Origin: Haladaptatus sp. ZSTT2
Lineage (GTDB): Archaea; Halobacteriota; Halobacteria; Halobacteriales; Halococcaceae
Direction: 5' to 3'
Length of the DNA stretch: 64,000 nucleotides
NCBI RefSeq assembly: GCF_037081775.1
Contig: NZ_JBAMHQ010000002.1
Span: 248,001-312,000, forward strand
Shown: positions 16,044 to 31,717 of the stretch, piece after piece
How the letters are laid out: the number at the start of each line of letters is the position of its first letter
Numbering within the stretch: position 1 is the first letter of the stretch
The notes under the pieces: model-generated
Told to the model about the DNA's origin: nothing
Database searches by the model: none
Seen by the model: the letters and a program-made list of their open reading frames with translations, nothing else
Translations under genes and position numbers: made by a program

Positions 16044-16820
16044 ATGGTACACGTCAGCGTCATTGGATGCGGAAATATGGGGAGCGCCCTCGTGCGGGGT
16101 CTCTCCAAGACTGGAACCCATACGATAACAGCCTGTGACGTCGACCCGCAGGCGCTTGCCTCGGTCGAAGCGTACTGCGAAACGACGACCACCGACCTCG
16201 CAATCGCAGCCGAAGCGCCGATCGTTTTCGTCGTCGTCAAACCCGCCCTCACCGCGGATATCGTCTCCGAACTCGACCTCTCGCCAGACCAAACGCTCGT
16301 CTCTATCGCTGCAGGTGTTTCGACGTCGGTGCTCGAAGCGAAGACGGACGCCGACGTTATTCGAGTCATGCCGAACCTCGCGGCTGCGACTGGTGACATG
16401 GCAGCAGCCGTCTCCGGGGCACAACTCCCCGACGACGTGGCCGAACTTCTCAGCGACGTCGGCGTGTTCGTCGAAGTTGATGAGGCACAGATGCACATCT
16501 CGACGGCGGTCAATGGGAGCGGCCCCGCATTCGTCTTCTATCTGCTGAATGCGATGAAACAAGCGGGCGTCGACGGTGGCTTAGACCCCGCGGACGCTGA
16601 AATCCTCGCTGCCCAAACGTTCAAGGGTGCTGCAGAGACCGTCCTCGCCTCTGAGAAATCTATCGACGAACTCATCGACGATGTCTGTTCACCGAAGGGG
16701 ACGACCATCGAAGGGATGGAGGTCCTTCGAGAGAGCACCGCCGAGAAAGCGGTTTCAGACGCAGTGGCGGCTGCAGAACGGCGGTCTGTGGAATTAGCAC
16801 GAGGGACTGACGATGAGTGA
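16044..16820 (+). CDS. proC: Pyrroline-5-carboxylate reductase
   Basis: 258 residues. It catalyses the last step of proline synthesis, NAD(P)H reduction of 1-pyrroline-5-carboxylate. The N-terminal Rossmann motif is [30 protein letters not shown] and the C-terminal signature [15 protein letters not shown] (the family's SPGGTT region) are diagnostic. It is the first gene of a proC-proB-proA operon, with its stop overlapping the proB start by 8 bases, so translation is probably coupled. Confidence 0.97.
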
Positions 16821-17664
16821 ACCGTCAGAGCTACTCGGGTCTGTCGAGGCAGACGAAGCCCAGCACGCACGACAGCTCGCGGCGGATGCCAACCTGGTCG
16901 TCGTCAAAGCGGGGACGAACTCGTTGACCGACGAACACTCCAACCTCGACGACGCGAAAGTCAACAAGCTTGTAACGGACGTGATGGATCTCCGCCGGCA
17001 GGGAAAACAGGTGTTGCTCGTGTCCTCCGGTGCGGTCGGGGCTGGAAAGGGTCTCCTTGGCCTCACAGACGAGACAGTCGAAGAGTCGCAGGCACTTTCG
17101 ACGGTGGGGCAATCACAACTCATGCGACGGTACACCGAGTACTTCGAGCAGTTCGACCAGACCGTCGCGCAGATTCTCTTGACGGAGAACGACTTAGAGG
17201 ACCCAGACCGGTTCACCAACTTCACGAACACCGTCGAAACACTCCTCCAGTGGGATATCGTCCCGATTATCAACGAGAACGACGCCGTCGCAACCGAAGA
17301 ACTCCGCATCGGTGACAACGACATGCTCTCCTCGTCGGTCGCAATCGGTATCGGTGCGCAACTTTTGGTCACGCTCACCGATGTCGGCGGCGTCTATACC
17401 GGAAACCCAAAGAAAGATTCGACCGCGACCCGCATCGAAGCTATCGGCAGTAACTATGCCGCGGTACAGAAGTTGGTCGACGCGAGTTCGACGCACGGAT
17501 TTGGTGGAATTCAGACGAAAGTCGCTGGCGCGCGTGCGGTGAGCGAACACGGCATTCCGGCCATCATCGCCAAATCCACCGCGGACGATGTGTTGGCCAA
17601 AATCAGTGCCGCAGAACCGGTGGGGACGATATTCATCCCGACGAACGGAGACGACGATGACTGA
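16813..17664 (+). CDS. proB: Glutamate 5-kinase
   Basis: 283 residues, the amino-acid-kinase domain only; the C-terminal PUA domain of many bacterial enzymes is absent. It phosphorylates glutamate to gamma-glutamyl phosphate. The substrate loop [12 protein letters not shown], the nucleotide/feedback region [36 protein letters not shown] and [15 protein letters not shown] are typical. Start ATG 16813 overlaps proC, and its 3' end overlaps proA by 8 bases. Confidence 0.97.
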
Positions 17665-18988
17665 GAAAACGACCCAAACGAAAGTTGCAGAGGCACAGAC
17701 CGCAGCGCTCAGAATCGCGGGATTGTCCGACGAAGCACGCGCCGATGCGTTGCACTCGATTGCAGACGCTATCGATGCGAGCCACGAGGAAATCCTAGCG
17801 GCCAACGAGACGGACGTTCGCGAGGCAGAGCAACTCCTCGAAGCAGGAGACTACAGCCAGGCGCTCGTCGACCGCCTCAAGCTCTCCCCATCGAAACTCG
17901 AGAGTATTACGGAGATGGTCAGGAGCGTTGCCGCGCAAGCCGACCCGCTCGGAAAGACGCAGACCGCCCGAAGGCTTGACGATGGGTTGGAACTCTACAA
18001 ATGCACCGTACCAATCGGTGTTGTGGGGACGATTTTCGAATCTAGACCCGATGCACTCGTCCAGATTGCGTCGCTTTGCTTGCGCTCTGGGAACGCCGTT
18101 ATCCTGAAGGGCGGCAGCGAGGCGAGCCATTCGAACCGCGTTCTCTTCGAGTTGATTCAGGACGCGACGGCCGACGTTCCCGACGGATGGGCACAACTCA
18201 TCGAAGCGCGAGCGGACGTAGACACCGTCCTCGAGATGGACGAGGCGATCGACCTCGTCATGCCACGAGGCAGTTCGGAATTCGTGTCCTACATCCAGAA
18301 CAACACGAGCATTCCGGTGCTCGGCCACACAGAGGGCGTCTGCCACGTCTACGTCGACAAAGAGGCAGACCTCTCGATGGCCACCGATATCGCGTATGAC
18401 GCAAAGGTGCAGTACCCCGCGGTGTGCAACGCGGTTGAAACTCTCTTGGTTCACGAACGTGTCGCGGCGGATTTCTTGCCGAAAATCGCTGCGAAGTACA
18501 CGGACGCCGGAGTTGAAATGCGCGGTGACGACGCAGCACGAGAAATCGTGTCGATGGAGGCGGCCAGCGAACTGGACTGGGAGACCGAATACGGCGACCT
18601 CATCATCGCCGTCAAAATCGTCGATTCGCTCGCCGAGGCAACCGAGCACATCACAACCTACGGCTCGAAGCACACGGACGCTATCGTGACCGACGACTCC
18701 GATCGCGCCGGTATTTTCATGCGGAGTCTCGACTCGGCAAGCGTGTTCCACAACGCCTCAACGCGTTTTGCTGATGGCTTCCGCTATGGACTCGGTGCCG
18801 AAGTCGGCATCAGCACTGGAAAAATCCACGCGCGCGGCCCCGTCGGCCTCGAAGGGCTCACCACGTATCAGTACTACCTCGAAGGCGATGGGCAGGTCGT
18901 CGGGACGTACGCGGGGGCCGATGCGAAACCGTTTGTCCACGAGGACTTCGACGGTTCATGGCATCCCGGCTCGCTTTCCAATCAGTAA
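17657..18988 (+). CDS. proA: Glutamate-5-semialdehyde dehydrogenase (gamma-glutamyl phosphate reductase)
   Basis: 443 residues from ATG 17657, which overlaps the proB stop. It reduces gamma-glutamyl phosphate to glutamate semialdehyde with [37 protein letters not shown] and the catalytic-cysteine motif [13 protein letters not shown] (Cys257) are characteristic of ProA. The C-terminal block with [20 protein letters not shown] is also conserved. The three genes encode the complete route from glutamate to proline, a compatible solute and amino acid. Confidence 0.97.
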
Positions 18989-19695: not shown

Positions 19696-20115
19696 ATGGA
19701 TCACCTCACGGATATTTCTGTCACGGATCTCCAGTCGGCCTTAGCGGAAGTGGAGGGTAAGAAGCCCACTCAAAGACTCATCGCGGCAATCGCGTACAAG
19801 AACGGTATCACACAGACTGAACTCGCAGACTGGTACGGAGTTGAGCGTCGCACGATTTATTCGTGGCTCAAGCGCCTAGAGCAGGAGCCACTGGTCGAAG
19901 CTGTCCACGATAATCATCGCTCTGGAAGGCCACGAAAACTTACTGACGAACAACGAATGACGTTGAACGAAACCCTTCACCAACCGCCGCACAAATCGGG
20001 ATACGCTGAACGAGAATGGACACCATCCCTCGTTAGAACCTATATCCTCGACGCGTTTGACGTGTCGTATTCGATTCCAAGCTGCAGACGGCTGATGAAT
20101 GAGGCTGGTCTGTGA
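19696..20115 (+). pseudogene. IS630-family transposase N-terminal part (OrfA-like), partner missing
   Basis: 139 residues with a helix-turn-helix (TQTELADWYGVERRTIYSWL) and the linker HRSGRPRKLTDEQRMTLNET, followed by EWTPSLVRTYILDAFDVSYS and CRRLMNEAGL. This is the DNA-binding half of haloarchaeal IS630/Tc1-type transposases. The catalytic DDE half normally follows in the next frame and is absent within the following 400 bases. The element is therefore a remnant, although this reading frame itself is intact and could still make a DNA-binding protein. Confidence 0.85.
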
Positions 20116-21459: not shown

Positions 21460-23139
21460 TTACGAACTTGCTGGAAGAACGTCGTCAATTCGGAGGATTG
21501 TCGTCGCGACGCTCGCTGCGGCTTCGAGTGCATAGCGCTTGCTCGTCGCTGGTTCGAGAATACCGTGTTCGACGACGTTACCGACAACCCGGTCCTGTCC
21601 GAGAACGCCGGTCGCCTTCCGGCTATTCCAGTGGGCCGCTCGTAGCGTGGTGAGCGTATTGACTAGGTCCATTCCGGCGTTACGAGCGAGTGTCTTTGGG
21701 ATGCCTTCGAGGGCATCTGCAACCGCCTCGATGACAAGCGACTCTCGGCCACCAACTGCTGGTGCGGACTCTCTAAGCTGTCGAGCGACGGTGATTTCAA
21801 TGGCACCACCACCGGGAACGACCTGCCCGCTCTCGACTGCAGCGCTGACAGACCGAATGGCATTCATGATGTTTCGTTCGAGTTCCCACCCGGACATCCA
21901 TGTACTGCCATGGGCCAATACTGAGACGACCTGTTCACCAGCGCCACCCCAAAACAGGAGTGCATTCTGTTCGATTCCTGGGTACCGCCGTCGCTCAAGT
22001 CGGGCCGTTTTCCCGGTATCGGTGCTGTCGAAGTCGCGGAGATGGGTGTTGATGGTCGCGCCAGTGGCGCGGGCAACCTTCTGCATTCGGTCTGTTCGTG
22101 CGTTTCGTACGACGGCAATCTCTGCGGCATCGAAGTATGGGAGTAACTCGTCTTCAACGCGATCCCCGACAAGCACCACGTCTACGTCTGCAGCGATGAG
22201 TGGTTCGAGCAGTTCTGTAACGTGTTCGACTTCGAAGTCAGCGAAGGCATCGACGCTATCCGGATCGGAGAGCTCGTAGGTCACCGTTTGGGTGCTCGAA
22301 TGACTATCGCTACTGAGCCGGTGGCGAATTGCCTCTGCTCTGGCGAATCCTTGGGTAACGACCGCGATGTTGGGATTGTCCAAGTTGGTTGGCTCGTAGT
22401 TTCCGGCGAATGATTTTTTCAAAACCATCCCGTCGACGAGTTCCGTATCGGTGATTGTCCCAGAGCGAAGCGATTCGATTTGTACGAGGTCTGTGTTCAC
22501 CCGAACCTCACTCTCATGTTCCTGTGCGAGCGTTCGGACGGCTTCGACCGACCACTGGCTCAGGGTGTCGAGAATCGGCTCTGCCGTTTTCCCTTGGAGG
22601 GTTGTTTGGGCAACTGCTGTGAGCAGTTCGTCATCGGACAGCGTCACCGGCCGTGATTCGGCGTGGATAGTTTCGGTCGCAATGGTGACCGCCTCCTTGA
22701 TTCCACTAGCGATAGTCGTCGGATGGAGTCCCTGTTCGATGAGTGGTTCGACAGCTCGGAGTATCTCGCTTGCATAAATCGCCGTTGTCGTTGTGCCGTC
22801 GCCGCATCGCTCCTCTTGTGCAGCTGCCACGCGGGCGATAACCCTGCCTCCGGGCGATTGAAATGGGAGGCGTTTGAGCAAGTACGCTCCGTTATTCGTC
22901 ACTTCGAAATAGTTGCCAAGGCCATCGTCTGCATCGTCGGTATCGTACAGGAGTTTGTCCATCCCTCGCGGTCCCAACGTCGTGGCAATGAAATCGCCAA
23001 CGATTTTCGCCCCAGTGATATTTTGTGATAGCACGTCACCAGAACCACCGGCCGACTCTTGAGAATCCGCCTGCTCTCTTTGCCTAAGAGAACTACTGCT
23101 CGTCTCACTGCGTGAAGCCATACCACACGAATGGTGCAT
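21460..23139 (-). CDS. Divergent group II chaperonin (thermosome-like) with substituted catalytic residues
   Basis: A 559-residue chaperonin with equatorial, intermediate and apical regions in normal order. The nucleotide loop TTLGPRGMDKLL (residues 53-64), the GDGTTT motif (Asp114), VPGGGAIE (441-448) and IPKTLARNAGMD (480-491) identify it. Two of the three acidic residues for ATP hydrolysis are changed: the canonical NDGATI is NNGAYL (Asn83), and the canonical hDAL is MNAI (Asn426). Asp114 is retained. The usual DPID after NAGMD is replaced by DLVNTL. An extended Ser/Gln-rich N-terminus (about 40 residues) precedes the fold, with an alternative start at Met7. It probably binds ATP but hydrolyses it poorly. 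It may assemble with other thermosome subunits. Confidence 0.93.
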   Translation of the reverse strand: MHHSCGMASRSETSSSSLRQREQADSQESAGGSGDVLSQNITGAKIVGDFIATTLGPRGMDKLLYDTDDADDGLGNYFEVTNNGAYLLKRLPFQSPGGRVIARVAAAQEERCGDGTTTTAIYASEILRAVEPLIEQGLHPTTIASGIKEAVTIATETIHAESRPVTLSDDELLTAVAQTTLQGKTAEPILDTLSQWSVEAVRTLAQEHESEVRVNTDLVQIESLRSGTITDTELVDGMVLKKSFAGNYEPTNLDNPNIAVVTQGFARAEAIRHRLSSDSHSSTQTVTYELSDPDSVDAFADFEVEHVTELLEPLIAADVDVVLVGDRVEDELLPYFDAAEIAVVRNARTDRMQKVARATGATINTHLRDFDSTDTGKTARLERRRYPGIEQNALLFWGGAGEQVVSVLAHGSTWMSGWELERNIMNAIRSVSAAVESGQVVPGGGAIEITVARQLRESAPAVGGRESLVIEAVADALEGIPKTLARNAGMDLVNTLTTLRAAHWNSRKATGVLGQDRVVGNVVEHGILEPATSKRYALEAAASVATTILRIDDVLPASS

Positions 23140-23201: not shown

Positions 23202-24182
23202 CTACTTCGTTTCCGTGAGCGAATCACGGTACACCGCCAGCTGGGCGAACAACGATTCATCGCGCGCTGCATATACGCTGTCCATATCTTTTCCCTCCCA
23301 GTTGTAAACCCCTTGTCCGGTTTTCACGCCGTAGTTTCCCGCTGTGACTAACTCAGTGAGAAACTCGTGGGGCTCAGTGCCCCGGTCGAGGTGGGGGAGG
23401 AGATGCGAGATTACGTCGTGGTGGACATCGAGTCCAGAGTGGTCGGACTTTTCGAAGATGCCGAGTATCGGCAAGCGGAATCCGAGGCTCCCTTTCACTG
23501 CTCGGTCGATGTCTTCGGCACTCGCAACCCCGCTGTTAAGCAACGATTCTGCCTCGTACGCCATCGCAGTCTGGATACGATTTACGATAAATCCGGGGAT
23601 ATCACGCTCGACGACGACCGGCGTCTTATCGATTGTTTCGAACAGCGCAGCGAGCGTAGTGACAGTCGAATCGGCAGTTTCGGTGCCTTTTACGAGTTCG
23701 ACAACGGGCACGATGTACGGAGGGTTGAAGTAGTGGGTACCGACCACTCGCGATTGATTATCGACGACGGATGCAATCTCGGTAATCGACAGTCCGGACG
23801 TGTTCGTTGCCAAAATGGCTTCCTCGGGAGCGTGTGTACCGAGTTTGTCGAACACGGTCTGTTTCAATTCCATGTCTTCAGAGACGGCCTCTGTCACGAG
23901 GTCTGCATCCTGGACTGCCGTTTCGAGCGATGACTCGTATGAGATTCGTGCTTCGACCACCTCCGTCTCATCCTGCGTCAGCTCTCCGTGCGCGTGGAGT
24001 GTCTCAACGGTCTCGTGGATATTCTCGGCTGCCGTTTTCAACGCTGTTTCATCAATATCGAACAGGACGACGGATTTCCCTCCAAGTGCGAAGGTGAGTG
24101 CGATTCCGTAGCCCATCGTTCCCGCACCGACAACTGCAACCCGCGCTATCTCGGTCTCACTACTCGCTAATTCTGCTCCCAT
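23202..24182 (-). CDS. 3-hydroxyacyl-CoA dehydrogenase-like / L-carnitine dehydrogenase-like enzyme
   Basis: 326 residues. The NAD-binding Rossmann motif is VAVVGAGTMGYGIALTFALG (residues 14-33), and the VTEAVSEDMELK and LATNTSGLSIT blocks are conserved. The catalytic His lies in GTHYFNPPYIVPVVELVKG, and PGFIVNRI follows. The NPPY phrase differs from NPVPVM of true hydroxyacyl-CoA dehydrogenases and resembles relatives acting on free 3-hydroxy acids (carnitine, gulonate). It is the last gene of the leftward transporter operon and lies in the same locus as a BKACE enzyme. Oxidation of an imported 3-hydroxy acid is the inferred role. Confidence 0.88.
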   Translation of the reverse strand: MGAELASSETEIARVAVVGAGTMGYGIALTFALGGKSVVLFDIDETALKTAAENIHETVETLHAHGELTQDETEVVEARISYESSLETAVQDADLVTEAVSEDMELKQTVFDKLGTHAPEEAILATNTSGLSITEIASVVDNQSRVVGTHYFNPPYIVPVVELVKGTETADSTVTTLAALFETIDKTPVVVERDIPGFIVNRIQTAMAYEAESLLNSGVASAEDIDRAVKGSLGFRLPILGIFEKSDHSGLDVHHDVISHLLPHLDRGTEPHEFLTELVTAGNYGVKTGQGVYNWEGKDMDSVYAARDESLFAQLAVYRDSLTETK

Positions 24183-24235: not shown

Positions 24236-24772
24236 CTATTCAAATCGACCGGTCTCCTTGTACTGGCTGCCGAGTTCAACGTAGTGTTCGTGAACTCGCT
24301 CGATTTCAGCTCGTTGTCCCTCAGTAAGCGGTTTGGTTTTTGCGGGTGCCCCGTAGGCAAGATGGCCTTCTGGGATTGTCTGGTCCTGAAGCACGACGCT
24401 TCCGGCGGCGACGATGCAGTTCGATTCGACAGTGGCCCCTTTGAGAACTGTACTTTGCATCCCGATGAGCGAATGGTCCTCGACCGTTGCGTAGTCGACG
24501 ACGACGTTGTGGCCAATGGTGACCGCGTCTCCAAGAAGCGCACCGTGGAGCATGGAAAACTCTTGGACGTTCGTTTCGTTTCCAACGACTGTTTCGCCGC
24601 CGTCACCGCGTAGACAGACAAACGGCCAGAGGCTCGCTCGCTCACCGACGAGAACATCCCCTATCAGGTATGCCATCTTCGAGACGAACGCTGACTCAGC
24701 AACCTGTGGTTTCGCGCCAAAGAGCGGTTCAGGAGAGAGGAATGACTGATTCTGACTCATGATTCGATGCAC
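24236..24772 (-). CDS. Gamma-carbonic-anhydrase/PaaY/CaiE-like hexapeptide-repeat protein
   Basis: 178 residues, forming a left-handed beta-helix from hexapeptide repeats (AYLIGDVLVGERASLWPFVC, VVGNETNVQEFSMLHG, VTIGHNVVVDYATVEDHSLI). It keeps His/Asn positions of the gamma-carbonic anhydrase metal site. PaaY acts as a thioesterase in phenylacetate breakdown, and CaiE sits in carnitine operons; their exact roles differ. The C-terminal helix GQRAEIERVHEHYVELGSQY is typical of the group. It is 53 bases upstream of the dehydrogenase and 143 bases downstream of the permease in one transcription direction. ATG may be 24772 or the internal Met at 24760. Confidence 0.88.
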   Translation of the reverse strand: MHRIMSQNQSFLSPEPLFGAKPQVAESAFVSKMAYLIGDVLVGERASLWPFVCLRGDGGETVVGNETNVQEFSMLHGALLGDAVTIGHNVVVDYATVEDHSLIGMQSTVLKGATVESNCIVAAGSVVLQDQTIPEGHLAYGAPAKTKPLTEGQRAEIERVHEHYVELGSQYKETGRFE

Positions 24773-24915: not shown

Positions 24916-25815
24916 CTATCCTTTCACACCTCCGGCACCGAATCCCTTCACGAGGTGATCCTGGACGAAGATGTACAGAATCAACACTGGTAGGGTCACA
25001 AGCGTCGTTGCGGCCATGAACTGCCCCCATGGTGGGTTCGCAGAGGTGAGCATCTGACTCAATCCCACCGGAAGCGTCTGCATCTGACTCGACGTCATGA
25101 TGACCGACGCCCACAGATAGTCGTTCCAGGCGAGCGACCACGTGAAGATGGACGTTGCGATGATTCCGGGAAGTGCGTTCGGTAACACGACGTGGTAGAA
25201 CGCCTGCATCCGCGAGGCGCCGTCGATCATCGCAGCCTCCTCTAATGAGTAGGGGATCCCGTTGAAGAACTCCCTGAGCACCCAGATGCTAAACGGCAGG
25301 GAGAACGTCAGATAGACCAATGACAGGCCAAACCAGGAGTTGTCCAGCCCCATATCGTTCATCAGCACGCTGAGTGGAATAACGAGCACGATCGCGGGGA
25401 ACATGTAAATCAACAGAATCGAGCTGTCGATGAACTCCCTACCCATGTACTCGAACCGAGAGATGCTATACGCGCCAAGCGTCCCGAGCGTAATCGTCAT
25501 CACCGTCGCAAAGGTGGAGGTGATGACGCTGTTGCGGTAGTAGAGGAAGAACTCAGAGTTCGTCTCGATCAGATCCGCGTAGTGGGTCAACGTCCACAGT
25601 TCCGGACTAATCTGTGGGGGCCAAGAGAACAACAGTTGTTCTGGCTGGAGTGACGTAATACCCATCCACAGCAGCGGAAACAGCGAGTAAACGACAGCGA
25701 TTGACGCGAGCAGGTACAACAAGATGCGATCGCTCCGATCTCGAATCCGCTTTGGGACGTGTTGTTGTAGCCACTTCTCGACGCCGGCTGACGGATTGAC
25801 TGAATTAAGCTTCAT
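24916..25815 (-). CDS. CUT1-family ABC importer permease, MalG-like
   Basis: 299 residues from ATG 25815, chosen because an AAGGAGG sequence lies just upstream and the start overlaps the stop of the preceding permease by 11 bases. Six membrane helices are visible. The EAA loop EEAAMIDGASRMQAFYHVVLP, which contacts the ATPase, is intact. The C-terminal FVQDHLVKGFGAGGVKG is a common signature of MalG/UgpE permeases. The importer family takes up sugars, glycerol phosphates and related polyols. Confidence 0.95.
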   Translation of the reverse strand: MKLNSVNPSAGVEKWLQQHVPKRIRDRSDRILLYLLASIAVVYSLFPLLWMGITSLQPEQLLFSWPPQISPELWTLTHYADLIETNSEFFLYYRNSVITSTFATVMTITLGTLGAYSISRFEYMGREFIDSSILLIYMFPAIVLVIPLSVLMNDMGLDNSWFGLSLVYLTFSLPFSIWVLREFFNGIPYSLEEAAMIDGASRMQAFYHVVLPNALPGIIATSIFTWSLAWNDYLWASVIMTSSQMQTLPVGLSQMLTSANPPWGQFMAATTLVTLPVLILYIFVQDHLVKGFGAGGVKG

Positions 25816-26758
25816 TTTTCGTTCCTCCTTGCTTGTAGAATTTTTGTAGATACAAGAAGCCAGCAACCATCATGATGACGAACATCACGTTCGCTATCGC
25901 GGCTGCGTAGCCGAAGTTGAGCCCCTGGTAGGCCTCTATGTATGCGTAGATGGGGAGAATCTGGGTCGAGATTCCTGGCCCCCCGCCGGTGAGCAGATAG
26001 ATGGGTGCGAACTTCTTGAACATCCACACACTCCGAAGCAACACAACAATCACGAGGATGTTGTACAGTTGCGGGAGTGTAACGTATCGGAACTTTGCGA
26101 ATTTGTACGCGCCATCTAGCTCAGCCGCTTCGTAGAGGCTTGGTGGAATCGTCTGGAGGCGGGCGAGCACGGTGATCACCACGAATGGGGTAAACCGCCA
26201 GACACCAAGCAAGATGGCCGTCGTCATTGCGTGTTCGTACCCGAAAAACACGATTGGTTCTTCGACCAATCCTGCCGTGACGATGAGGTAGTTGAACACC
26301 CCATACGTCGCGTTGAATATCCACCGGAAGTTGAACACCGCGACGATGGTTGGCACCATATACGGGAACAGAACTGCTCCACGGAAGAGCTTCCGTCCCT
26401 TGAATTCGCGGTGTAGCAATAGCGCGATTGCAACGCCGAGAACCAGCTGTAAGAACATGGTTCCAAACGCCCAGACCACGTTGTTCTTCAACGACACCCA
26501 GAAGTCGTTTGTCGAAAAGAGTCTGGTGTAATTACTCAAACCAGCCCATTCGAGCGTCATACTGAACCCTGACGAAGAATGGAAACCCAGGTAGATGGCG
26601 AACAAGAGTGGGAAGATGACGATCACTGCGAAAACGAGTAATGTGGGGACGATTAACGAAACGCCCAACTCGCTTTCAGTGATGTCTCTTCGCACCACTC
26701 GGGAGGCAAATCCTCTGATGGATTGCCAACTCCGTTTGTTACGTTCCATTATGCTCAT
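25805..26758 (-). CDS. CUT1-family ABC importer permease, MalF-like
   Basis: 317 residues with six membrane helices. Conserved blocks are LFAIYLGFHSSSGF, the EAA loop YEAAELDGAYKFAKFRYVTLP, and PIYLLTGGGPGISTQILPIY, the last typical of UgpA/MalF-type permeases. The N-terminus is basic and cytoplasmic. It follows the binding-protein gene by 66 bases and overlaps the second permease. Confidence 0.95.
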   Translation of the reverse strand: MSIMERNKRSWQSIRGFASRVVRRDITESELGVSLIVPTLLVFAVIVIFPLLFAIYLGFHSSSGFSMTLEWAGLSNYTRLFSTNDFWVSLKNNVVWAFGTMFLQLVLGVAIALLLHREFKGRKLFRGAVLFPYMVPTIVAVFNFRWIFNATYGVFNYLIVTAGLVEEPIVFFGYEHAMTTAILLGVWRFTPFVVITVLARLQTIPPSLYEAAELDGAYKFAKFRYVTLPQLYNILVIVVLLRSVWMFKKFAPIYLLTGGGPGISTQILPIYAYIEAYQGLNFGYAAAIANVMFVIMMVAGFLYLQKFYKQGGTKNEA

Positions 26759-26824: not shown

Positions 26825-28246
26825 TCAGTTTCCGCTGCCATAGTTGGCAACCTCCTGTTCTGCTTTCTTTGCCATTTCTTTCGCCGCTTCGTCGACGCTG
26901 ATGTTGCCCGCAAAGTAGCTGGAACCAGGCCCGCTCATCACCGGTTTCTTGATGATGTTTGCCAGTTCCGGGAACGCCTCGAACTCGGGGCCAGCACGGC
27001 ACTTCGGGTGCGCTTTCCGGGTGTCAGCCACGAGATTATCACGGATCTCCGTTCCGTGTTCGTAGTCAGTCCACACGTCGAACTCATCCCATGCGTCCTG
27101 GTGTCCTTCGTACATCGGAACGGTGTTTCCGGGCGTTCCTTTCATGAACTTATCGACGAAGAATTCTGGCTTCACGTAATTCTTCCACCATTCGACGGCT
27201 GCCTCCTTGTTTTCACCTCCTTTGATGAGCTGGCCACCGTCACCCGACATGAGCGATTTCTCGTCGGGACTCGCCTTGTCGTTGTCTGGTTGGGCGTGTG
27301 AAAATGTCGTCACCTTGTCCGCGATGTCGGGTGTTTGTTCGATGACGTTGATGTACGTCCGACCCCAGTACTGACACGATGCAACCTTGTCGGCTGCGAA
27401 GTTGGTGTAGATGTCGCCGTAACTGAACGACTCTTTGCCCGGTGCGCCGTATTCGGCCATCGCGTTCCAGTGTTCTAAGGTGTCTCTCGTCACTTGAGAG
27501 TCGAACGCGACGTTCTTTTCGGGGTCGAGTGCGTTTCCGCCAGCACCACGGAGACGCGAGAAGAACACAGTGGCCATGTAGGCATTTTTCGCTGTCGAGA
27601 TGGCGGTACCGTGGAGGTTCGGGAACTCGTCCGATTCGTGCGCCTTCTTGAGCACTCGCAGTTCGTCGTTCCACGACTCTGGGTACTCTTCACCGATGGC
27701 TTCGAGCACGTCTGTGCGCATCCAGGTGGTGTTCGATTGACTGTTCGACTGCATCGTGTAGAACGACCCGTCTTTATCGAGATAATGAGTCTCGGGGACG
27801 TCAGCGGCAATCTTCCCAGCAGACTCCTCAGCAGCATCCATCAACCGTTTCGGATCTTCGATAAACCCTTGGTCTTTCAACAGGAGATTCAATTCGTTGT
27901 CGAGGAAGAACACGAGGTCTGGCCAATCTTCTGTCCGCGCAGCCTGAACCAGCCGGTTGTAAATTTTCTCCCAGCTCGTGTACCCCATCTCAATCTCGAG
28001 GTTTTCGTGATTCGCTTTGAATGAATCGTTCGCTTCGTTGTAGGAGCGTTTCGAAGCTGATGAAGTGTACGTCGTCAGCAGTTTTAATTTCGAGCTTTCC
28101 GATGAGCCATCTCCTGAATCGGACTCAGACCCACCAAGACATCCAGCAAGCGCTGCAGCGCCGGCAGCCCCTGCGCCCGTGAGAAACATGCGGCGATTCC
28201 ATTGTTCATCACCGTTAGGTGACTCTGTGTTGGTATGACTAGCCAT
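26825..28246 (-). CDS. Extracellular solute-binding lipoprotein of the CUT1 importer
   Basis: 473 residues. The Tat signal NRRMFLTGAGAAGAAALAG ends in a lipobox Cys followed by an acidic Ser/Gly linker, so the protein is lipid-anchored outside the membrane. The mature part matches family 1 solute-binding proteins (EIEMGYTSWEKIYNRLVQAA and a C-terminal segment with ELANIIKKPVMSGPGS). It delivers substrate to the two permeases downstream. An inverted repeat GTTAC-N10-GTAAC lies at 28283-28302 in the promoter region. Confidence 0.95.
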   Translation of the reverse strand: MASHTNTESPNGDEQWNRRMFLTGAGAAGAAALAGCLGGSESDSGDGSSESSKLKLLTTYTSSASKRSYNEANDSFKANHENLEIEMGYTSWEKIYNRLVQAARTEDWPDLVFFLDNELNLLLKDQGFIEDPKRLMDAAEESAGKIAADVPETHYLDKDGSFYTMQSNSQSNTTWMRTDVLEAIGEEYPESWNDELRVLKKAHESDEFPNLHGTAISTAKNAYMATVFFSRLRGAGGNALDPEKNVAFDSQVTRDTLEHWNAMAEYGAPGKESFSYGDIYTNFAADKVASCQYWGRTYINVIEQTPDIADKVTTFSHAQPDNDKASPDEKSLMSGDGGQLIKGGENKEAAVEWWKNYVKPEFFVDKFMKGTPGNTVPMYEGHQDAWDEFDVWTDYEHGTEIRDNLVADTRKAHPKCRAGPEFEAFPELANIIKKPVMSGPGSSYFAGNISVDEAAKEMAKKAEQEVANYGSGN

Positions 28247-28716: not shown

Positions 28717-29835
28717 TCAGACCACAGCCCGACCGTCTGCAGCGTCAAAGAGGTGCATCCGCTCAGGGATAAATTCGATTTCGATGGTGTCGCCGCGCGC
28801 GACCTCCGTTCCCTCATCCACGACAACAATCACCCGTTCACCGTTTTTCTCGAGATGTAAGATATACTCGTCACCAGCTGTTTCGACCATGATAACCTCC
28901 ATTCGAGCCGTGCGCGACGTCTCGCCTGTTGCCCCTCCTTCCGCGTTAACGTTGAAGTGTTGTGGCCTGACACCGAGAGTATAGTTGGCTCCATTGGTCG
29001 TTTTCTCTTGCATCGATACCACCGATTCTTCACCTGTAGGGAGCGTAATTTGGTGTATTCCTGTATCGAGAATCACCGAATCACTCTCGTGGGTCACCTC
29101 ACAATCGAGGAAATTCATACTCGGCGTTCCGATGAAGTCCGCCACGAACTGGTTGGTGGGGTTGTTGAACAATTCCTGTGGTGCTGCCAGTTGTTGTATC
29201 TCTCCCTGATGGACGACAGCGACCCGGTCACTCATGGTCATTGCTTCGATCTGGTTGTGCGTGACGTACACGGTCGTCACACCGAGCTTCCGCTGAAGTT
29301 CAACGAGGGTTGCACGCATGTCCACGCGCAACTTCGCATCGAGGTTCGCGAGTGGCTCGTCGAGCAAGAATACCTCAGGGTCTCGCACGAGGCTCCGACC
29401 GAGAGCCACACGCTGTTGTTGTCCCCCAGAGAGCGCCTGGATCTCTCGGTCGAGCAGATCTTGAATCTGAAGCATCGCGGCCGCTTCCTCGACGGCCTCC
29501 GCTCGTTTCTGTTTTGCCATCCCCTGCATCTTCAACCCGAATTCCATGTTCCCTCTGACGGTCATGTTCGGGTACAGGGCATAGTTCTGGAACACCATCG
29601 CAATGTCACGTTGCTGTGGGGGAGTGTCGGTGACGTCGTGTGATCCAAACGAGATTGTACCGTCGGTTGCGGAAACGATGCCGGCGAGCATGCGTAGAAT
29701 CGTCGATTTTCCACTGCCACTGGGGCCAACCAGTGTGACAAACTCACCATCTTGGATATCTATGGAGACGTCATCCACCGCGACGACGTCTTTACCGTAG
29801 ACTTTCGTCAAATTTTCAATGCTAACTCTGGCCAT
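28717..29835 (-). CDS. ABC importer ATP-binding protein, MalK/UgpC-like
   Basis: 372 residues. Walker A GPSGSGKST (residues 38-46), the Q-loop NYALYPNMTVRGNM, the signature LSGGQQQRVALGRSLVRDP and Walker B VFLLDEPLANLDAKL are all intact. The C-terminal TOBE/regulatory domain (residues about 240-372) is of the MalK type and contains LGVRPQHFNV. It energises the CUT1 permeases. It is transcribed separately from the binding-protein operon and follows the SDR gene by 153 bases. Confidence 0.96.
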   Translation of the reverse strand: MARVSIENLTKVYGKDVVAVDDVSIDIQDGEFVTLVGPSGSGKSTILRMLAGIVSATDGTISFGSHDVTDTPPQQRDIAMVFQNYALYPNMTVRGNMEFGLKMQGMAKQKRAEAVEEAAAMLQIQDLLDREIQALSGGQQQRVALGRSLVRDPEVFLLDEPLANLDAKLRVDMRATLVELQRKLGVTTVYVTHNQIEAMTMSDRVAVVHQGEIQQLAAPQELFNNPTNQFVADFIGTPSMNFLDCEVTHESDSVILDTGIHQITLPTGEESVVSMQEKTTNGANYTLGVRPQHFNVNAEGGATGETSRTARMEVIMVETAGDEYILHLEKNGERVIVVVDEGTEVARGDTIEIEFIPERMHLFDAADGRAVV

Positions 29836-29988: not shown

Positions 29989-30765
29989 TCAGTACATGAC
30001 CTTGCCAGCCGAGACGTTGATGTCTTGACCAGTAATTCGGTCTGACCCACTCGAACTGAGGAACACAGCGACTTTGGCGACATCTTCTCGTGAGACCAAT
30101 TCGCCACGTGGGCTTGCCTCCTCTGCTGCCGCTCGAACATCAGCGTACTTCTGTCCAGTCGCATTCGCCTTCTCCTCGAACACCTTTGTGATTCGAGGGC
30201 CGTCGACGGAACCGGGACAGATGGCATTTACGTTGATATCGTGTTCGCCGACTTCAGCAGCGAGCGTTCGAGTAAAGCCGATTAGTCCCATCTTTGTCGT
30301 CGCATAGGGGAGTCGTTGTTCGAGTGGCCGCTTCCCGCTTACGGACGCGATGTTAACGATTCTGCCATAGGACTGGTCTTTCATTATCGGGAGAACCTCC
30401 CGACACATGTAGAACGGACCTCGAAGGTTGACGTTCATCGTCTGCTCCCATTCGTCCTGCGTTATCTCCTCGCAATATCGAGTCGGACCGGCGATTCCCG
30501 CATTGTTCACCAGAATCTCGATTGAGTCGAACGCTTCGAGCGCCTGGTCAACGGTGTGTTTTACGTCTGAAAGTTGCTGCAAGTCTGTTTCCACGGTAAG
30601 GGCTCGTTGCCCTTCGTCTTCGACGAGCTGTTTTGTCTCCTCCATCGCTTCTTCGTTGATGTCGGCGATTACAACGTCGGACCCACTTCGTGCGAGTTCG
30701 AGACAGATTGCTTGGCCGATTCCACGACCGCCGCCGGTAACGACGGCTGTGCTATTCAGGCTCAC
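29989..30765 (-). CDS. Short-chain dehydrogenase/reductase
   Basis: 258 residues starting at GTG 30765; the ATG two bases upstream is followed directly by a stop. Cofactor motif TGGGRGIGQ (residues 10-18), VNNAGIAGP, catalytic Ser (NIASVSG) and Tyr-x3-Lys (YATTKMG) are present. The NAD-preferring Asp follows strand 2 (VVIADINEEA). It probably oxidises a secondary alcohol, here plausibly a 3-hydroxy acid feeding the divergent BKACE enzyme. A TATA element at 30785-30795 indicates a leaderless mRNA. Confidence 0.95.
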   Translation of the reverse strand: MSLNSTAVVTGGGRGIGQAICLELARSGSDVVIADINEEAMEETKQLVEDEGQRALTVETDLQQLSDVKHTVDQALEAFDSIEILVNNAGIAGPTRYCEEITQDEWEQTMNVNLRGPFYMCREVLPIMKDQSYGRIVNIASVSGKRPLEQRLPYATTKMGLIGFTRTLAAEVGEHDINVNAICPGSVDGPRITKVFEEKANATGQKYADVRAAAEEASPRGELVSREDVAKVAVFLSSSGSDRITGQDINVSAGKVMY

Positions 30766-30868: not shown

Positions 30869-31717
30869 ATGGTATACAGTGGCTACCAAGACTACTTCGA
30901 TAAGAAAGTCATCATCAGCGTCGCCACGACTGGTGGACTTCACGGAGAAGAAGCGAATCCGAACCTTCCAACGCAACCAGACGAGATTGCAGAAGACGTC
31001 CGCGAATGTGAGAAACTGGGTGCTTCGATTGTCCATTTACACGCTCGAAATCCTGATGGGTCTGACACCAAGTCCGTCGAACGATTCCAGGCGATTCGCG
31101 ACGCAATCGACGAACGGTGTGAGGATATTATCATCAACTTCACCACCGGAGGTGGCCAGTCTCGCGAAGACCGTATCCGCCCTGTCTTAGAGACTGATCC
31201 GAGTCCCGATGTTGCGACGATTGATTTAGGTCCACTCAATTTCGGGCCGCGAACGGTTCGGAAATACTGCCGAGAGCAAAACGAAGAGTTCGCAACCCAG
31301 ATGGCAGAACACGGTGTGAAACCAGAGATGGAACTGTTCCACCCCGGCCATTTTACCGAAGTGAACCACCTCATCAAAGAAGGCTATCTCGACGAGCCAT
31401 ACTGGTGTACGCTCATTCTTGGGATGCAGACGGGGACGATTCCGAATCCGCGAAACCTGCTTAATCTCGTCGATAATCTCCCCGACGGGGCTGAATGGCA
31501 GTGCCTCGCAGTCGGTAAACACCAGCTGCCACTGACTACGATGGCGATGGCAATGGGTGGGCACGTCCGAGTTGGGCTCGAAGATAACGTCTACTATCGC
31601 AAAGGCGACCTCGCAGAGAGCAACGCCCAGCTCGTAGCCAGAGCCGTTCGAATTGCAGGAGAATTAGAGCGTCCCGTCGCGTCACCGGCCGAGACCCGCG
31701 AGATTCTCGGGCTCTAA
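30869..31717 (+). CDS. Beta-keto acid cleavage enzyme (BKACE, DUF849)
   Basis: 282 residues. The enzyme family condenses a beta-keto acid with acetyl-CoA and splits it into acetoacetate (or a relative) and a new CoA ester; members cleave 3-keto-5-aminohexanoate or dehydrocarnitine. The zinc-binding HxH is in IVHLHARNPDGS (His56, His58), INFTTGGG lines the active site, and RVGLEDNVYY supplies the third ligand Glu238. All key residues are intact. Its divergent partner is an SDR dehydrogenase, and a CUT1 importer is nearby. The true substrate is unknown; I infer an imported 3-hydroxy acid after oxidation. Confidence 0.95.
   Translation: MVYSGYQDYFDKKVIISVATTGGLHGEEANPNLPTQPDEIAEDVRECEKLGASIVHLHARNPDGSDTKSVERFQAIRDAIDERCEDIIINFTTGGGQSREDRIRPVLETDPSPDVATIDLGPLNFGPRTVRKYCREQNEEFATQMAEHGVKPEMELFHPGHFTEVNHLIKEGYLDEPYWCTLILGMQTGTIPNPRNLLNLVDNLPDGAEWQCLAVGKHQLPLTTMAMAMGGHVRVGLEDNVYYRKGDLAESNAQLVARAVRIAGELERPVASPAETREILGL

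Follow-up and report, generated by a model that had tools for sequence, protein, structure and literature searches.

The window, i.e., the whole 64,000-nucleotide stretch of Haladaptatus sp. ZSTT2 DNA that was analysed, encodes a full-length chaperonin that has lost two of the three aspartates used in ATP hydrolysis. We consider it rather probable, if far from certain, that this protein is dedicated to a single module for ABC-type uptake and 3-hydroxy-acid catabolism, and that it binds ATP but hydrolyses it poorly. The gene and its diagnostic codons are listed below.

21460..23139, minus strand: satellite group II chaperonin, 559 aa (open reading frame, alignments and PF00118)
22891..22893, minus strand: AAC codon of Asn83 (Asp in 71/71 canonical thermosomes)
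21862..21864, minus strand: AAT codon of Asn426 (Asp in 71/71 canonical thermosomes)
22798..22800, minus strand: GAC codon of Asp114, in GDGTTT (Asp in 62/62 chaperonins of the tree set)

The open reading frame starts with ATG and has no internal stops, and its product matched PF00118 (Cpn60_TCP1) with 385 bits, far over the cut-off, from position 3 to 488 of the 490-position profile. The protein is unambiguously a full-length group II (thermosome-type) chaperonin, and it scores under the NCBIfam thermosome alpha/beta equivalog cut-offs (382.6 against 450 and 370.2 against 400 bits). Alignments made with HMMER and MAFFT, including solved thermosomes and the genome's own CCTs, placed Asn83 at the position of GroEL D52 (the Asp of NDGxT) and Asn426 at the hDAL Asp, which corresponds to GroEL D398 and Mm-cpn D386. 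The original prediction that Asn stands at these two sites, with GDGTTT (Asp114, the D87 equivalent) intact, was thereby confirmed: the codons read cleanly (that of the adjacent Asn82 is AAT), both residues fall on Asp columns of characterised thermosomes and not elsewhere, and the D52, D87 and D398 columns each hold Asp in 71/71 aligned thermosomes from many archaeal phyla. The genome's own three canonical CCTs likewise keep all three Asp. The loss of two Asp is a confirmed, real pattern, far from chance, and Asp114 alone is left of the three that characterise an active thermosome subunit. In GroEL, double mutation of Asp52 and Asp398 nearly abolishes hydrolysis.

Outside these sites, the window protein keeps GPxG, the sensing-loop Lys184, GGG, NAGxD and Asp491. 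It has an N-terminal extension and, like the rest of its clade, lacks the GGM tail and carries an acidic insertion of 7-8 residues in the stem loop, between GPxGxDK and N[NS]G. The stem loop of group II chaperonins is an intra-ring contact, and the longer loop together with the missing tail may alter the ring contacts and the chamber floor.

Orthologues of this chaperonin were found in only two more of the 392 genomes of the order, G295 and G259, with 46% and 44% identity to the window protein, respectively. A profile search of the 171 genomes of the G295/G259 family gave no extra orthologue, and scanning contigs with the alignment of the three members brought up no relative. The three members come from two genera and two families, G295 and G259 being congeneric, and their reading frames are all intact. 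Both orthologues keep GDGTTT and have Ser in place of the D52-type Asp and Ala in place of the D398-type Asp; hence, the check set beforehand, for Asp at either site within the orthologous group, found no such homologue among its three proteins. The expected conservation across homologues applied to the loss of Asp and not to Asn itself: as the orthologues carry Ser/Ala, the conserved property of the clade is the absence of a carboxylate, the substitute residue being free to vary. Where the window protein has the sensing-loop Lys, both orthologues have Thr, and they may therefore handle nucleotide differently from it. Of seven pairs, three were usable for dN/dS (P0006/P0007, L021/L022 and L042/L044), the other four being set aside because a wrong ORF had been paired (22-27% identity). 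For the orthologue pair P0006/P0007 (83% identity), NG86 gave a dN of 0.107 and a dS of 0.433 (dN/dS ~0.25), while YN00 gave a larger dS and a lower dN/dS. As judged from sequence comparison, the clade is under purifying selection.

These data also bear on whether the protein could still be an active ATPase, with other residues compensating for the two lost Asp. The retention of Asp114, GPxG, Lys184, GGG and Asp491 would fit such an enzyme. However, both lost residues are invariant in the 71 canonical proteins, the Ser/Ala of the orthologues provide no substitute carboxylate, the motif alignment contains no new Asp/Glu beside either site, and D386A alone stops hydrolysis in Mm-cpn, which together make compensation very unlikely.

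The fold of the protein was modelled with AlphaFold2 (mean pLDDT 82, pTM 0.79) from a 72-row alignment made of thermosomes, of which the model is thus not fully independent. The predicted equatorial, intermediate and apical domains are arranged as in solved thermosomes, and the best Foldseek matches in the PDB were structures of Mm-cpn and of thermosomes, with TM 0.74-0.81 over the query; 3j02, an entry of the D386A variant, is among them. Two stretches were not predicted with confidence, residues 1-32 at the N-terminus and residues 270-289 within the apical insertion (pLDDT < 50 for the latter); a segment corresponding to the apical helical protrusion, i.e., the built-in lid, is present with this insertion. 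Compared with archaeal thermosomes/CCTs (Mm-cpn and T. acidophilum; 31-38% identity), the window protein shares the three-domain fold, GPxG, GDGTTT, GGG and NAGxD, but it lacks both non-P-loop hydrolysis Asp and the GGM tail, has the stem-loop insertion, and is module-linked and sporadic. The Mm-cpn D386A variant binds ATP without hydrolysing it and is held in the ATP-bound open state (PMC5019054). The same Asp is removed in the window protein; however, D386A is an artificial single change, whereas in the window protein the D52-type Asp is missing as well.

The chaperonin gene lies on contig C2, a 404-kb replicon in a 3.23-Mb haloarchaeal genome, together with the following genes.

23202..24182, minus strand: HCDH, 3-hydroxyacyl-CoA dehydrogenase-family enzyme (55-56% homologues in both orthologous loci)
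24236..24772, minus strand: gamma-carbonic-anhydrase-like hexapeptide-repeat protein
24916..25866, minus strand: ABC transporter permease 2 (68-69% identical in both orthologous loci)
25805..26758, minus strand: ABC transporter permease 1 (68-69% identical in both orthologous loci)
26825..28246, minus strand: solute-binding protein (59-61% identical in G295 and G259)
28717..29835, minus strand: UgpC/MalK-type ABC ATPase (65-66%; adjoins the chaperonin in both orthologous loci)
29989..30765, minus strand: SDR dehydrogenase (57-60%; adjoins the chaperonin in both orthologous loci)
30869..31717, plus strand: BKACE beta-keto acid cleavage enzyme (related BKACE, 36-37%, in both orthologous loci)

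The minus-strand order is SDR, ABC ATPase, solute-binding protein, the two permeases, gamma-carbonic-anhydrase-like protein, HCDH (62 bases upstream of the chaperonin and on the same strand) and chaperonin, and the BKACE gene follows just past the SDR end of the module. The solute-binding protein, permeases, ABC ATPase, SDR, HCDH and BKACE accompany the chaperonin in 3/3 genomes, two of them of one genus, which is the conserved co-occurrence with one metabolic module that marks an operon-dedicated chaperonin. No gamma-carbonic-anhydrase gene was seen at the G295 and G259 loci, where the chaperonin is flanked by the ABC ATPase and SDR genes and the solute-binding protein gene lies ~10 kb off. 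As for the wider surroundings, proline genes (proC-proB-proA, 16044-18988) lie ~2.5 kb from the chaperonin gene, and homologues of them (58-73%) lie ~6 kb from the HCDH gene of G259; given their closeness to both loci, the shared neighbourhood may be bigger than the module. A short HTH protein of the IS630-transposase N-terminal type (HTH_29/HTH_32/HTH_33) is encoded at 19696-20115 and is possibly a transposase fragment beside the module.

Because ABC and catabolic genes abound on haloarchaeal plasmids, mere closeness is weak evidence, and only the conserved gene sets carry weight. The solute-binding protein and the chaperonin occupy identical sets of 3/392 genomes, with a nominal chance overlap of ~1e-7 if genomes were independent, a figure that overstates the evidence because two of the three share a genus. 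Homologues of HCDH occur in 22/392 genomes, in 19 of which this chaperonin was not found; HCDH often adjoins BKACE, and the 15 further HCDH loci that were read had no such chaperonin near. HCDH/BKACE was therefore rejected as the part of the module to which the chaperonin is tied. Since the solute-binding protein shares its three genomes and HCDH extends to 22, the chaperonin seems to travel with the transporter-bearing module. This co-occurrence evidence is phylogenetically thin, with three members known and two of one genus.

A decaying, functionless duplicate riding with a mobile catabolic cluster would also explain a long branch, a sporadic distribution (3/392), varying residues at the lost sites and a location on a 404-kb replicon. 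Nevertheless, decay should not have left intact frames in three genomes, a dN/dS of ~0.25 or lower, and a P-loop and gene neighbourhood conserved at 45% identity, and we regard this explanation as highly improbable, even more so than compensated ATPase activity.

Given that both Asp are lost while the ATP-binding motifs and constraint are kept, the ATP-binding, hydrolysis-poor character put forward in the original prediction is retained as a prediction, supported by the motifs and the clade-wide Asp loss. For the module-dedicated chaperonin that we favour, ATP-Mg would be bound via GPxG and GDGTTT and hydrolysed very slowly. The rings would then stay long in the ATP-bound state, which would be open by analogy with Mm-cpn D386A, and might act as a holdase or a slow cage with a long dwell time, serving a single protein of the module instead of folding proteins in general. 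The favoured client would be the solute-binding protein, or else some other component that only this transporter has, because HCDH occurs in 19 sampled genomes in which this chaperonin was not found and the solute-binding protein in none of them. A like role is known from bacteria: GroEL-like chaperonins of monooxygenases, namely MmoG and a chaperonin-like protein of a mycobacterial monooxygenase, are each encoded with one catabolic system and reported to be required for it (reviewed in PMC7994243). Such operon-dedicated chaperonins are, however, bacterial and of group I, and the window protein differs from them in its degenerate ATPase centre.

Other chaperonins of haloarchaea were then compared with the window protein. 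About one third of the sampled haloarchaeal genomes (61/193 rows) have more than three PF00118 genes, and PF00118 matches were present in 40 haloarchaeal plasmid records, those examined often lying within catabolic clusters. A tree of 62 chaperonins, 16 of them canonical CCTs, contained the window clade (3 rows, support 100/100), a formamidase clade (7 rows, 100/99; a formamidase gene near in 7/7 loci), a hydantoinase/polyamine-uptake clade (19 rows, 100/100; including P0002/L005 of the window genome) and a mandelate-racemase/DHDPS clade (3 rows; an adjacent second chaperonin in two loci). Further satellite groups were a sugar pair, a GH4 trio and an acyl-CoA pair (L043/L054), whose conserved neighbours encode acyl-CoA dehydrogenase, AMP-binding and SDR proteins; two near-canonical plasmid copies (L033 and L039) lie outside catabolic clusters. 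Several haloarchaeal satellite chaperonin clades are thus each tied to one catabolic setting. The joins between them are poorly resolved, with long branches meeting, and the number of origins is not inferable from the tree. The replicon that carries the window gene also holds another satellite chaperonin (G000:C2:350063-351829; L011:10064-11833), in a hydantoinase/dihydropyrimidinase/amidase cluster, and satellites of the hydantoinase type occur in 15/392 genomes.

Since the rows were picked for their resemblance to the window protein and P0002 from a partly sampled order, residue frequencies in this 62-row set are not a census; within it, all 62 proteins kept the Asp at D87, 55 kept that at D52 and 29 that at D398, the D398-type Asp thus being missing in 33/62. 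The minimum numbers of changes on the tree were 0, 3 and 6 for D87, D52 and D398, respectively. All 16 canonical CCTs were D/D/D. The hydantoinase clade has Lys/Gln at D398 in 19/19 members and xDGVxx in place of GDGTTT, which leaves the Asp unchanged; in the mandelate-racemase clade, Ser replaces the D52 Asp, and Ser or Arg the D398 Asp; and 3/7 members of the formamidase clade have lost the D398 Asp. These satellites, which are often borne on plasmids, resemble the window protein in their catabolic clusters and in the frequent loss of the D398-type Asp, but they form separate clades with different residues and C-terminal tails.

Two adjacent chaperonin genes occur at several loci. On a plasmid of Haladaptatus sp. 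YSMS36 (L040:4803-8250), two tandem chaperonin genes, named thsB and thsA in the record, encode a D/D/D protein followed by an N/D/N one, the latter having the residue pattern of the window protein; this pair might naturally form a ring in which active and inactive subunits are mixed. In the mandelate-racemase/DHDPS group, L038:5929-9276 and L049:4929-8188 each contain two adjacent chaperonin genes that are convergently oriented and divergent in sequence, with unlike residue losses.

Such pairs suggest hetero-rings in the family and are pertinent to the remaining part of the original prediction, namely that the window protein, locked with ATP, plays a structural or regulatory part in mixed rings formed with the chromosomal CCTs, which it would retune. 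Three canonical CCTs in the genome could serve as partners, and the group II fold appears intact in the model. On the other hand, no active partner is encoded beside the window gene, the stem loop is 7-8 residues longer than the canonical one, the GGM tail is missing, and nearly all genomes that have these canonical CCTs lack the chaperonin. Mixing may still occur, but we consider it unlikely; this part of the prediction was not supported, and the transport/catabolic module and the pathway-linked satellites point first to a dedicated chaperonin.

More tentatively, and with somewhat more doubt than belief, we propose that haloarchaea have repeatedly evolved private chaperonins, one for each catabolic or transport module, in which a hydrolytic Asp (above all that of the D398 type) is lost and the Mg/ATP-binding Asp of the P-loop always kept. 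ATP binding without normal hydrolysis would then be a selected state, yielding client-specific cages of slow or single turnover. Group II descendants that have lost ATPase residues are already known, as are dedicated chaperonins in bacteria. For example, MKKS and BBS12 have an altered ATP-hydrolysis motif and a conserved ATP-binding Gly-Pro (PMC2846930). The vertebrate MKKS/BBS10/BBS12/CCT8L proteins are likewise group II descendants with the motif altered in some, but they are eukaryotic, not operon-linked and of independent origin. A search of the open-access literature, which omits most subscription papers, gave nothing relevant on pathway-linked chaperonins of haloarchaea, and the combination of both features, repeated in several haloarchaeal clades, was not found there. 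Group II chaperonins are usually viewed as general, ATP-hydrolysing housekeeping machines. If pathway-linked paralogues have indeed repeatedly lost hydrolytic residues, a specialised chaperonin could do without hydrolysis, and clients encoded next to their chaperonins would provide natural pairs in which to test the need for ATP turnover and the evolution of client specificity.

The C-terminal tails of the satellites also show regularities of their own. Members of the hydantoinase/polyamine clade (L005, L014-L028, L045, L047, L052 and L053) have a long stem-loop insertion, and most of them share a conserved tail, DAIYDEHAExHQxxLE...TIWxQ. In the formamidase clade (L030, L031, L034, L035, L041 and L046), GGM is replaced by a mostly His-rich tail, HDHDH..., followed by GYPWA[IV][GS]H; that of L032 is read in another frame, which may reflect a frameshift. 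The idea that this tail copies a motif of the client was rejected, as GGYPWAIGH is absent from the neighbouring formamidases. Within the cavity, the tail might bind metal or contact the client.
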